Source: Mesorhizobium sp. Pch-S
Lineage (GTDB): Bacteria > Pseudomonadota > Alphaproteobacteria > Rhizobiales > Rhizobiaceae
Reading direction: 5' to 3'
Length of the DNA: 64,000 nucleotides
Assembly: GCF_004136315.1 (NCBI RefSeq)
Contig: NZ_CP029562.1
Coordinates: 5,417,501 to 5,481,500, forward strand
In this document: positions 18,480-22,847 of the stretch, in pieces
Layout of the letters: every line of letters begins with the position of its first letter
Position numbering within the stretch: position 1 is the first letter of the stretch
Program-made: the position numbers and the translations under genes
The notes under the pieces: generated by a model
What the model was told of the DNA's origin: nothing
Databases searched by the model: none
Seen by the model: only the letters and a program-made list of their open reading frames with translations

Positions 18480-19610
18480 ATGGCCGGCCAGCTTCCATTC
18501 CCGATATCGCGCCGTGCACTGCTTGCCGGCATTGGAGCCGCGGGTGCAAACATGATCGCGCCTGGCCTTGTCCAAGGTCAGGCGGCTGCAGGCGTGCCGC
18601 CAGTCGATGCCACGTTCCTGTTCATCGCCGATATCCATGCCTGCCGCATGGCCAGCGGGCTCAGCCCCAATTGCCTGCAGGAGGGCAAGACCGATGCGGC
18701 GCTGCTGCGCCATATCGCGGCGCTGAACGGTATTGGAGACAAGTCATGGCCGGCCGAGATCAATGGTGTTGGCTCTGCTCTGCGCTCCGCCGGCAGCCGG
18801 ATCGGTACGCCGCTGGGTATCATCGTCGGTGGTGACATGACCGATGATGGCGGCGGCCAGGTGACGCAACCAAGCGAAGGCACCCAACTGCTCCAGTTCA
18901 GCCAGCGCTACCAACAGGGTATCGGGCCGGATCGCGTGAACGTGCCGGTCTATGTCGGCCTCGGCAATCACGACCTCGACCAGAATGGGCCACCACCCCA
19001 CGCCGACTGGTACCGACGTGAACTGCGCGACTATGTCGAGGTCAATCATCGTGCCGGAGTGTTCTTCAAGCCGCCGGTTTCGGTCGCCGACTATGATGTC
19101 GCCTCCGATTGCTACTCCTGGGACTGGGGCGGGCTGCATCTGGTGCAATTGCATCGCTTCGGGGGCGACACGGCGTTCGGCGCCGCAAGCAGCCTGCCAT
19201 GGCTGAAACGCAACCTTGCGGCCAACGCAGCGGACGGAAGGCCCGTGGTGTTGTTCCAGCACTACGGTTGGGACAGTTTTTCACTCGAACGCTGGGATCC
19301 GCAGAAATCCACCTTCGATGACGACGGCTCCGGTGCGCCGCACTGGTGGAACGATGAGGATCGTGAAGCGCTGCTGGCGGCTATCAAAGGCTACAACGTC
19401 GTCGCCGTCTTTCACGGTCACCAGCACGAAACGCCGATGATCTATCAGCGGGACGGGCTGGATATCGTCAAGCCGAAGGCCAGCTTCATGGGCGGCTTCG
19501 CGCTGGTGAGGATCACCAATGCCGGCATGGATGTGGCGCTAGGCGAGGCGACTGATGACATTGGCAATGTGATGTTCACAAATGCGTTGGCGCGTCGTTG
19601 GCAAGGCTGA
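18480..19610 (+). CDS. Tat-exported metallophosphoesterase
   Basis: 376 residues, calcineurin-like phosphoesterase. The metal-binding motifs are present in order: DIH (Asp51, His53), GGDM (Asp119), GNHD (Asn163, His164, Asp165), a histidine in FQHYGW, and FHGHQHE. A twin-arginine signal SRRALLAG (10-17) followed by a hydrophobic stretch suggests folded export to the periplasm. Its substrate is unknown; phosphodiesters or phosphoesters are typical. ATG 18480 places the Tat motif correctly; upstream codons do not look native. It starts 55 bases after the DeoR gene and may be in the same transcript. Confidence 0.85.
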   Translation: MAGQLPFPISRRALLAGIGAAGANMIAPGLVQGQAAAGVPPVDATFLFIADIHACRMASGLSPNCLQEGKTDAALLRHIAALNGIGDKSWPAEINGVGSALRSAGSRIGTPLGIIVGGDMTDDGGGQVTQPSEGTQLLQFSQRYQQGIGPDRVNVPVYVGLGNHDLDQNGPPPHADWYRRELRDYVEVNHRAGVFFKPPVSVADYDVASDCYSWDWGGLHLVQLHRFGGDTAFGAASSLPWLKRNLAANAADGRPVVLFQHYGWDSFSLERWDPQKSTFDDDGSGAPHWWNDEDREALLAAIKGYNVVAVFHGHQHETPMIYQRDGLDIVKPKASFMGGFALVRITNAGMDVALGEATDDIGNVMFTNALARRWQG

Positions 19611-19917
19611 GGATCGATGACATTCCCGCCGCAGAAGGTCGAAAAATCTCGCCAATCCGTAAGGTGACGGGCAGGCGGCGGCGAGACATAGCCATTATGC
19701 CTGCTTCCTGAGCCAGCCTGCTCCGTTGGGCACAGTGGCTGCACACAAGGCTTTCTATGAAACAGGCAGGCTGCCTTGCCATGATAAGGACCGCAGCGCT
19801 CCATCATTTTATCATAAAGCCCTGCCACCTCATCGTCGCGCCGATGGCTGCGCGGTGATGGTTCCTTTGCGTGCCGGATCGCGACCAGCTGCGGCTTTCC
19901 AAACTGGGTCTGAACGC
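19611..19917. other. Intergenic region before the two-component genes
   Basis: 307 bases without a gene. The only structure I see is an inverted repeat ATGATAA (19781-19787) / TTATCAT (19809-19815), which may be a regulator site for the two-component operon. The reading frame of the response regulator is open upstream to 19726, but the encoded residues do not resemble a receiver domain. Confidence 0.35.
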
Positions 19918-20594
19918 ATGCGCATCCTTATGCTGGAGGACGACAAGAAAACGGCGGCCTTCGTCGCCAAGGGACTGAACGAGGCCGGGCATATCTGTGA
20001 CCACCTGGCCGACGGCCGTGACGCACTGTTCCAGGCAACCCGCGAAGCCTATGACGTCTTCGTCGTCGATCGCATGACGCCGGGGCTCGACGGGCTTTCC
20101 GTCGTGAAATCGCTGCGTGCCGCGGGCGTCATGACGCCGGTGATTTTCCTGACCTCGGTAGGAGGGGTGGATGATCGGGTCGAGGGATTGCAGGCGGGTG
20201 CAGACGACTATCTGGTGAAACCCTTCGCCTTTTCTGAGCTTCTGGCGCGCCTGCAGGCGCTCGGTCGCCGTCCGCCGGTGCAGGAGCAGAAGACCGTGCT
20301 CAAGGTGGCTGACCTCGAAATGGATCTGGTCAAGCGTCATGTGGCGCGGCAGGGACAGTCCATCGAGCTGCAGCCGCGTGAGTTCCGGCTCCTGGAGGTT
20401 CTGATGCGCGGCGAGGGCAGGGTGATCACCCGCACCATGCTGCTGGAGCGGGTCTGGGACTTTCATTTCGATCCCAAGACCAGCGTGGTCGAAATCATGT
20501 CAGCCGTCTGCGCGCCAAGATCGACCGCCCCTTCACGGTGCCATTGCTCCATACCGTCCGGAACACCGGCTACAGCCTCTATGCGTCCCGTTGA
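19918..20594 (+). pseudogene. OmpR-family response regulator, frameshifted near its C-terminus
   Basis: The receiver domain is complete (EDD at residues 7-9, phospho-acceptor Asp51, Lys101 in LVKPF) and the winged-helix DNA-binding domain is normal up to SVVEI. After codon 193 the expected ending SRLRAKIDRPF...NTGYSLYASR is found in another frame (20502 to the TGA at 20592-20594). Restoring one base between 20496 and 20500, for example reading ATCCATGTC, gives the usual VVEIHVSRLR. As written, translation loses the last recognition part and runs on in frame into the histidine kinase. It could be a real mutation or a sequencing error. ATG 19918 starts MRILMLEDD. Confidence 0.85.
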
Positions 20595-21960
20595 AAGTCT
20601 GCTGCGCTCGACGCCATTCCGGCTGGCGCTGGCCTTCTCGGCCTTCGTTATTCTCGCCTTCCTGCTGACCGGTGGCATCGTCTACCAGACGATGAGCGCG
20701 AACCTTGATCGGCGTCTCGATGATTCCGTCCGGCAAGCCTATTCGATGATCGCGACGACCTATGCCGAGAGCGACGTCGACGACCTCATCATCGCTGTTA
20801 ACAGCCACGCCGTCGGCAATGCGGGCAATGACCAGCTGATCTCCCTGACCGGCGCGCAAGGTGAGAGTCTGGCGGGTAACCTTTCAGCGATCGATCTGCC
20901 CGAGGGGTTTGCCATCGTGCCGGAAGGCACTCCGGGTTTCCCCGAGACAGCACCATACAGGGCCTATTCGGGCAAGGTCGGCTCGACCAACCTCACCGTC
21001 GCACAGAGTTTCAAGGAAACGGAAGAGCTGGAAAGCCTGCTGCTGGCGAGCTTTGTCTGGGCTGCTGCGATTGTCGCTGGCCTTGCCATTGCCGGTGGCG
21101 CATTCCTGGCATCCCGCGTGCAGCGCCGGCTGGATGCGATTGGCGATACGATGGTGGCCGTCTCGCAAGGCAAGCTCGAGGCCCGTATTCCGCAGCTCGG
21201 CCGCGATGACGACATCGATGGGGTCTCGATACAGATCAATGCTGCGCTCGACCGGCTCGGTTCGCTGGTGGAGGGCATGCGGCAAGTCAGCAGCGATATT
21301 GCTCATGACCTGAAAACACCGCTCAACCGCCTGCACATGATCCTTGACGGCGCTGCTGACAAGGCGGGCAAGCGGGTGGATGTTTCGCCGGATCTCGCCG
21401 AAGCCCGTGCAGAAAGCACGCAGATCAACGAGACGTTCGATGCATTGCTGCGGATCGCGCAGATCGAAGCGGGCGCACGCAGGGCACGTTTCGTTCAGCT
21501 CGACCTCACCGAGGTGGTGGCATCGGTTGCGGATATCTACGCCGAAGTCGCCAAGGATGACGGCAAGGTACTGCTTATCGAAAATTGCATAGCTGGCGAT
21601 ATGATCACCGGCGACCGCGAACTGCTGACCCAGCTCTTCGCCAACCTGATCGAAAACGCCATCCGCCACACCCCGGAAGGGACGCGGATCGAAATTTCAG
21701 CGAACCGACAGGCCGATAGTCTTGTCGCCGAGGTGCGCGACAACGGCCCGGGCATCCCCAGTGAAGAGCAGGAGAAGGTTTTTCGGCGCCTCTACCGGCT
21801 GGACAAGAGCCGCTCGACACCGGGAACCGGCCTGGGACTGAGCCTGGTCAAGGCAATCGCTGACCTGCACGGCGCCGCCGTTTCGATGCAGCCGCGCAAT
21901 CCGGGCATTGCTGCAGTCGTTGTCTTCCCGATCCTGACGGGTCAGCTTTCGGCCCGATGA
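20581..21960 (+). CDS. Sensor histidine kinase
   Basis: 459 residues. Membrane segment 1 (residues about 15-37), a periplasmic sensor region (about 40-150), membrane segment 2 (about 155-177), HAMP, then HisKA with the phosphorylated His242 in SSDIAHDLKTPLNRL. The ATPase domain has the N box NLIENAIRH, G1 DNGPGIP, F box VFRRLYRLD and G2 GTGLGLSL. ATG 20581 overlaps the true end of the regulator gene by 14 bases, the usual coupling. The kinase is intact, but its frame is joined to the upstream regulator frame because of the single-base loss near 20498. The signal it senses is unknown. It ends 19 bases past the stop of the convergent kinase gene. Confidence 0.9.
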   Translation: MRPVESLLRSTPFRLALAFSAFVILAFLLTGGIVYQTMSANLDRRLDDSVRQAYSMIATTYAESDVDDLIIAVNSHAVGNAGNDQLISLTGAQGESLAGNLSAIDLPEGFAIVPEGTPGFPETAPYRAYSGKVGSTNLTVAQSFKETEELESLLLASFVWAAAIVAGLAIAGGAFLASRVQRRLDAIGDTMVAVSQGKLEARIPQLGRDDDIDGVSIQINAALDRLGSLVEGMRQVSSDIAHDLKTPLNRLHMILDGAADKAGKRVDVSPDLAEARAESTQINETFDALLRIAQIEAGARRARFVQLDLTEVVASVADIYAEVAKDDGKVLLIENCIAGDMITGDRELLTQLFANLIENAIRHTPEGTRIEISANRQADSLVAEVRDNGPGIPSEEQEKVFRRLYRLDKSRSTPGTGLGLSLVKAIADLHGAAVSMQPRNPGIAAVVVFPILTGQLSAR

Positions 21961-22847
21961 TCCGCCAGAACGGCATCGATGACCCGTTCAGACAAACGGA
22001 TCTCCTCGGCGCTTCGGCTGATCTGACCCGAAACCGTGATCATCGCCTTCCACAAGGTCCAGGCGCGGCCGCGCGCCCAGGTGCCGGTGTCGAGTGGCAG
22101 GGCCTGGCGGAAGGCACGACGGCTTCCGTTTTGAAACAGCGTCCACGCAATCGCCAGGTCGCAGGCGGGATCGCCAACCGCTGAACTGCCGAAGTCGATG
22201 ACCGCGCAAAGGTTGCCATCCTTCACCAGGAGGTTGCCCCATGCAATGTCGCCATGCACCCAGACCGGCGCATGTCGCCACCGCGTAGCGAGGGCCTCTT
22301 CCCAGAGCGTACGTGCCGTCTTCGTGTCGATCCGGCCGTCAAGCAGGCGAAAGGCCTCGCGGGTCTGGTCGTCATAGACGGCAAGGGAGCCGCCGCGGAA
22401 GTAGTTCTGCGGTCCGGCTGCCGGTCCGTCGATGGCGTCGATGCGATGGAGTGCCGTCAGGAAGCCGGCCAGGTCAACGGCGAACTCGTCGAGGTCGCCG
22501 ATGCGCCCGTCCGTCGCCGTCTCGCCTTCCAACCAGCCATAGACAGACCATGGCCAGGGATAGCCTTCGCCAGGCTCGCCCAGGGCGAGGGGTGCCGGGA
22601 TCGGCAAGGGCAGGTGCGATGCCAGCTTCGGCAGCCAATGCTGTTCCCTTGCCACTTGCGCGGCATAGCCGACGGCGCTCGGCAGGCGCACGCTCATTTC
22701 ATCGCCCAGCAGGAAGGTGCGGTTGTCCCAGCCGCCGGGTTCGACCTTGCGGATCGGCAGATGCGCCCACTGTGGAAACTGCGTGCCGATCAGCCGCCGT
22801 ACCAGCGTCGTATCAATCTCGACCGTGATCTCGGATGTCTCCGACAA
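21942..22847 (-). CDS. Aminoglycoside phosphotransferase family protein
   Basis: 301 residues. The kinase-like catalytic loop VWVHGDIAWGNLLVKDG and the metal-binding VIDFGSSAVGDPACDLAIAW are intact, as is the nucleotide-binding start GGWDNRTFLLGDEMSVRLP. Family members phosphorylate small hydroxylated compounds such as aminoglycosides, homoserine or choline; the substrate here cannot be told and resistance should not be assumed. I prefer a TTG start at 22847 (GAGG upstream, protein then begins with SETSEITVEID), because the ATG at 22898 lies inside a hairpin (22886-22913). The 3' end overlaps the histidine kinase gene by 19 bases, convergent. Confidence 0.82.
   Translation of the reverse strand: MSETSEITVEIDTTLVRRLIGTQFPQWAHLPIRKVEPGGWDNRTFLLGDEMSVRLPSAVGYAAQVAREQHWLPKLASHLPLPIPAPLALGEPGEGYPWPWSVYGWLEGETATDGRIGDLDEFAVDLAGFLTALHRIDAIDGPAAGPQNYFRGGSLAVYDDQTREAFRLLDGRIDTKTARTLWEEALATRWRHAPVWVHGDIAWGNLLVKDGNLCAVIDFGSSAVGDPACDLAIAWTLFQNGSRRAFRQALPLDTGTWARGRAWTLWKAMITVSGQISRSAEEIRLSERVIDAVLADHRAES

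Follow-up and report, generated by a model that had tools for sequence, protein, structure and literature searches.

A probable assembly error joins the genes of an ordinary OmpR-type two-component pair in Mesorhizobium sp. Pch-S

The fused frame and its parts

We analysed a stretch of 64,000 nucleotides (the window, G000:C1:5417501-5481500) from the genome of Mesorhizobium sp. Pch-S, which is assembled as 1 contig of 6,619,214 bases; the window contains no N. The parts of the fused frame lie on its forward strand. A single open frame runs from the ATG at 19918 to a stop codon ending at 21960 and comprises 680 amino acids and the stop, the same 681 codons, running into a kinase, that an earlier note on this DNA had reported. 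With an in-frame TTG at 19726 as an alternative start, the product would have 744 amino acids. The first 193 codons (19918–20496), identified by frame reading, Pfam and identity to the database protein P0122, encode a response regulator's receiver domain and the beginning of its winged helix. The regulator reads normally up to its codon 193 (...KTSVVEI), where the earlier note had also placed the break, and is followed by 28 unrelated, out-of-frame codons (20497–20580) that join it to the kinase. The sensor histidine kinase (20581–21960; assigned from its frame, Pfam and the database protein P0002) has 459 amino acids from the ATG at 20581. Its start overlaps by 14 bases the displaced C-terminus of the regulator (20502–20594), which translation and comparison with P0122 recovered in another frame as 30 identical residues, from SRLRAK to YASR (20502–20591), with their own TGA at 20592–20594, again as noted before.

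Pfam identified a receiver domain (PF00072, 75.8 bits, residues 3–112), a Trans_reg_C domain, HisKA and HATPase_c in the fused frame, which is therefore no chance open frame. The Trans_reg_C match is cut, covering 48 of 77 positions, whereas the regulator of the relative LU carries the complete domain with 83.7 bits; the suspected loss of the end of the DNA-binding domain is thus borne out for the fused frame. The nearest solved regulator by sequence is PDB entry 1kgs. The break falls within what is presumably the recognition helix, and the wing comes after it. As in other OmpR/PhoB two-component pairs, a regulator with receiver and winged helix adjoins a HAMP-type kinase, but the window has the last part of the DNA-binding domain shifted out of frame. 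The regulator accordingly shows the receiver domain of the OmpR/PhoB family without a complete winged helix in one frame, the remainder lying in another, and the kinase has the HisKA and HATPase_c domains of a HisKA-type sensor kinase in one frame with its own start. The nearest NCBIfam models describe heavy-metal response regulators (TIGR01387) and heavy-metal sensor kinases (TIGR01386). The intact LU proteins score below both curated cut-offs (244.4 bits against 279.2, and 186.9 bits against 292.55, respectively), so that neither is assigned to the heavy-metal subfamily and we claim no metal function.

The DNA of the window is one base shorter than that of LU and of another relative, 1M-11, at about 20493–20498, and otherwise collinear over 240 bases. 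The one-base loss proposed from the frames is therefore also seen in the alignment, in which the exact base is ambiguous. No run of four or more equal bases occurs in 20471–20530. Three weak direct repeats and one inverted pair were found in 19600–22000, none of them at the break, and a repeat-mediated deletion was rejected on this ground.

The gene pair in related genomes

All 146 genomes of the genus that were searched at the DNA level gave a match, mostly to a weaker homologue. We took the loci of the best 30 of the 146 genomes' matches, our own locus included, and merged duplicates (L006 with L012, L007 with L013). In all 29 distinct relative loci, the OmpR-type regulator is intact, at 225–227 amino acids and with a stop of its own, and the kinase forms a separate gene. 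This comparison of orthologous pairs, which the earlier note had proposed as a check, revealed no relative among the 29 that shares the fused frame. The kinase ATG overlaps the regulator stop by 14 bases in the three nearest relatives (LU, 1M-11 and G141), as in the window, and upstream of it no stop interrupts their kinase frame as far back as about codon 170 of the regulator, so that it spans some 50 terminal regulator codons. A loss of one base in this part therefore suffices to produce such a fused frame. The genome of the window also encodes two paralogous regulators, L002 and L003, each of 225 amino acids; L002 belongs to a second regulator pair of like kind, and its regulator is 64% identical. 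The kinase homologue at L033 (G017) matches in two frames near its C-terminus, and that copy may be frameshifted too.

A protein database search with the fused frame, which scored the 7,997 candidates with the most words in common, gave 4,516 matches. Among the best 120 of these there is no fused regulator-kinase protein, and none covers more than 68% of the fused frame. The intact regulator P0122 (225 amino acids, a cluster of 7) shares 190 of the 192 residues that precede the break, and its last 30 residues are those of the displaced C-terminus; the kinase P0002 (459 amino acids, a cluster of 23) is identical to that of the window at 455 of 459 residues.

The codon differences from relatives bear on the age of the lesion. 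Relative to LU, the 192 codons preceding the break show 58 synonymous and 10 non-synonymous codon differences, and the 31 codons past it, read in the old frame with the stop included, show 9 synonymous and 1 non-synonymous. The corresponding numbers against 1M-11 are 82 and 12 before the break and 11 and 3 past it. As the differences in the displaced C-terminus are mainly synonymous, decay as a pseudogene was rejected, and the undecayed end implies that the loss is either very recent or absent from the cell.

The gene neighbourhood varies among the relatives. A gene for a DUF347 membrane protein (PF03988) lies upstream of the regulator in all five loci tested from G141 and the group at about 70% (L014, L016, L021, L026 and L035), where it is a possible target of the regulator. 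It was not found among the upstream genes tested in LU and 1M-11, where other genes lie, and the upstream neighbour in the window is a metallophosphoesterase gene. A search of the window's own genome for DUF347 gave 0 matches, as did the controls of that search. A plasmid search returned five partial matches covering 24–32% of the query.

One-base losses across the assembly

We compared 800 kb of the window's own genome with stretches of LU, 1M-11 and G141 and scored uncompensated frame changes on either side of which mismatches were overrepresented at third codon positions, with limits that differed slightly between passes. With the own genome as target, 475 genes were compared with LU, 230 with 1M-11 and 401 with G141. 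Initial passes flagged 23 to 35 genes in each direction, most of which looked like over-long 5' ends of predicted frames. The census identified 17 sites in the own genome, 15 of which are one-base losses in conserved genes, the regulator included. Ten of the 15 were seen against at least two relatives in the census and two more by alignment (12 in all), and three against a single relative. The two remaining sites were left out, one being a gain of one base against 1M-11 only and the other a loss of two bases against LU only, in an alignment with other gaps; no one-base gain was confirmed in the own genome in this census. The LU regulator is absent from the census output, and the direct DNA alignment covers the regulator.

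According to the families of the intact relatives, the 14 other genes encode ribosomal protein S1, KDO-8-phosphate synthase, RuvX, an ABC-F ATPase, a MATE transporter, an MFS transporter, an AlkB-like oxygenase, a LysR-type regulator, a DeoR-type regulator, a patatin-like protein, a sulfatase-type protein, a carbon-nitrogen hydrolase, an EamA protein and a PF00144 protein. The window itself holds a second one-base loss, at about 53254 in a patatin-like phospholipase gene, seen against three relatives.

When the comparison genomes served as targets, about nine broken genes of mixed type turned up in 1,855 kb: five sites in 655 kb of LU (three of one base and two of two bases), one site in 400 kb of 1M-11, a gain, and three genes in 800 kb of G141, with frame changes of mixed sizes. 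Mirror images, namely the window's own fusion and the 1M-11 gene near the site of the one-base gain, were excluded from these counts. Comparison with two genomes settles two of the five LU sites, and a third falls in a messy alignment; the other two (a loss of two bases and a loss of one) were seen only against the window's genome, in which they could be gains. The three one-base losses in LU comprise one settled against two relatives, one in the messy alignment and one that is possibly a gain in the window's genome. In the G141 block at 1.36–1.76 Mb, one gene (census positions 433295–434651) carries four frame changes against two genomes; in contrast to the single losses of the window's genome, it resembles a real pseudogene.

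Three of the broken genes were searched for by family in the whole own genome. The gene rpsA (G000:C1, about 2260372) is present only as two neighbouring pieces in different frames, neither above the cut-off, with three other, weak matches. Similarly, kdsA (about 5732826) was found only as two neighbouring pieces in different frames, neither above the cut-off, and ruvX (about 5667308) only as two pieces, one of which passes the low cut-off. No intact rpsA, kdsA or ruvX was found by this search in the whole genome, so the split genes are the only full-length candidates. Ribosomal protein S1 is indispensable to Gram-negative bacteria, as are Kdo synthesis and RuvX/YqgF to Escherichia coli. A living strain without rpsA, kdsA and ruvX together is implausible, which implies that the assembly contains false one-base losses.

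Origin of the fused frame

The locus is very probably an ordinary OmpR-type two-component pair, and its fusion an assembly error. The same type of one-base lesion recurs in the assembly, also in the single-copy rpsA, kdsA and ruvX, whose essentiality is general background. Since 14 further one-base losses occur in 800 kb, including those in the only copies of these three genes, the base at the regulator was most likely lost by the assembly rather than by the cell. Alongside the frames, the intact relatives and the excess of one-base losses, which are direct observations, we infer that the loss in the regulator is most likely an error because it shares its class with the other losses in size, privacy and freshness. 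A sequencing error, which the earlier note had named as a possible outcome, is thus the most likely reading in light of the census and the split essential genes. The claim that a one-base loss joined the frames artificially holds, whereas its reading as a likely biological event is not supported, because the same assembly holds 14 more such losses.

Long-read assemblies are described in PMC12007338 as having conserved genes broken by small indels with false deletions as the main indel type, and the deletion errors as following homopolymers of two to eight. The lesions reported here may be of a similar kind, as they fragment conserved genes by small indels, mostly deletions. The absence of a homopolymer of at least four around the break, unlike the deletions described in that study, counts against an assembly error. 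So does the occurrence of one-base losses in LU (3 of its 5 sites), and likewise the fact that the regulator is not known as essential, so that a real loss would be tolerable.

With an assembly error, the regulator stop and the kinase start would overlap by 14 bases as in an ordinary pair, and the assembly would have dropped one base near 20495 as one among many false single-base deletions. The kinase frame, open over about the last 50 codons of the regulator, would then allow this single loss to merge the frames of both genes. The cell most likely makes two separate proteins. Judging from their families, the kinase would sense an envelope signal and phosphorylate the regulator, which would bind DNA via its complete winged helix.

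A genuine one-base deletion, very recent and confined to this strain, is unlikely. The base is absent from a one-contig assembly in a window without N, real one-base losses exist in related genomes (as in LU near 248207, seen against two genomes), and the L002 pair in the same genome means that the loss could be tolerated. However, the type and freshness of the lesion match those of the 14 other losses, some of them in genes that the cell should not lack, and all 29 relatives are intact. In this doubtful case, the regulator would lose the end of the recognition helix and the wing and would not bind DNA; ribosomes starting at 19918 would run into the kinase, and the kinase might also start at the ATG at 20581, beside which the regulator stop would no longer lie. 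It is distinctly improbable that the loss is real and gives a true receiver-kinase fusion, or a kinase uncoupled from DNA-binding output, as the beginning of a transition from two paired genes to a hybrid kinase, eased by the open kinase frame.

Hybrid histidine kinases combine receiver and kinase domains within one open frame. The window likewise has both in one open frame, but the receiver lies ahead of the kinase N-terminus, the two are joined by out-of-frame codons, and the fusion occurs in none of the 29 relatives. That the receiver-kinase fusion is functional and maintained by selection as a new hybrid kinase is very improbable. The 680 open codons and the good preservation of both parts would be consistent with it; however, the fusion is absent from the relatives and from the best 120 of the 4,516 protein matches, the 28 linking codons are regulator coding sequence out of frame whose old frame is still conserved, and the openness is accounted for by the kinase frame being open there in the intact relatives. 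The locus is accordingly not assigned to the conserved hybrid kinases. Programmed ribosomal frameshifting or transcriptional slippage restoring the regulator, which the intact displaced end and its conserved codons might suggest, can be dismissed as next to impossible because 20471–20530 offers no slippery run and the relatives need no shift.

Most likely, there is no new fused protein. Whether the base loss is real or an error, a single lost base in two overlapping genes has produced the "hybrid kinase" as an artefact, and such an annotation at this locus is not to be trusted. With 15 conserved genes in the sampled 800 kb showing a one-base loss, including the only rpsA, kdsA and ruvX, any other gene loss or fusion called from this assembly requires support at the level of the reads. 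The open kinase frame over the end of the regulator explains by geometry why an overlapping regulator/kinase pair that loses one base mimics a hybrid kinase.
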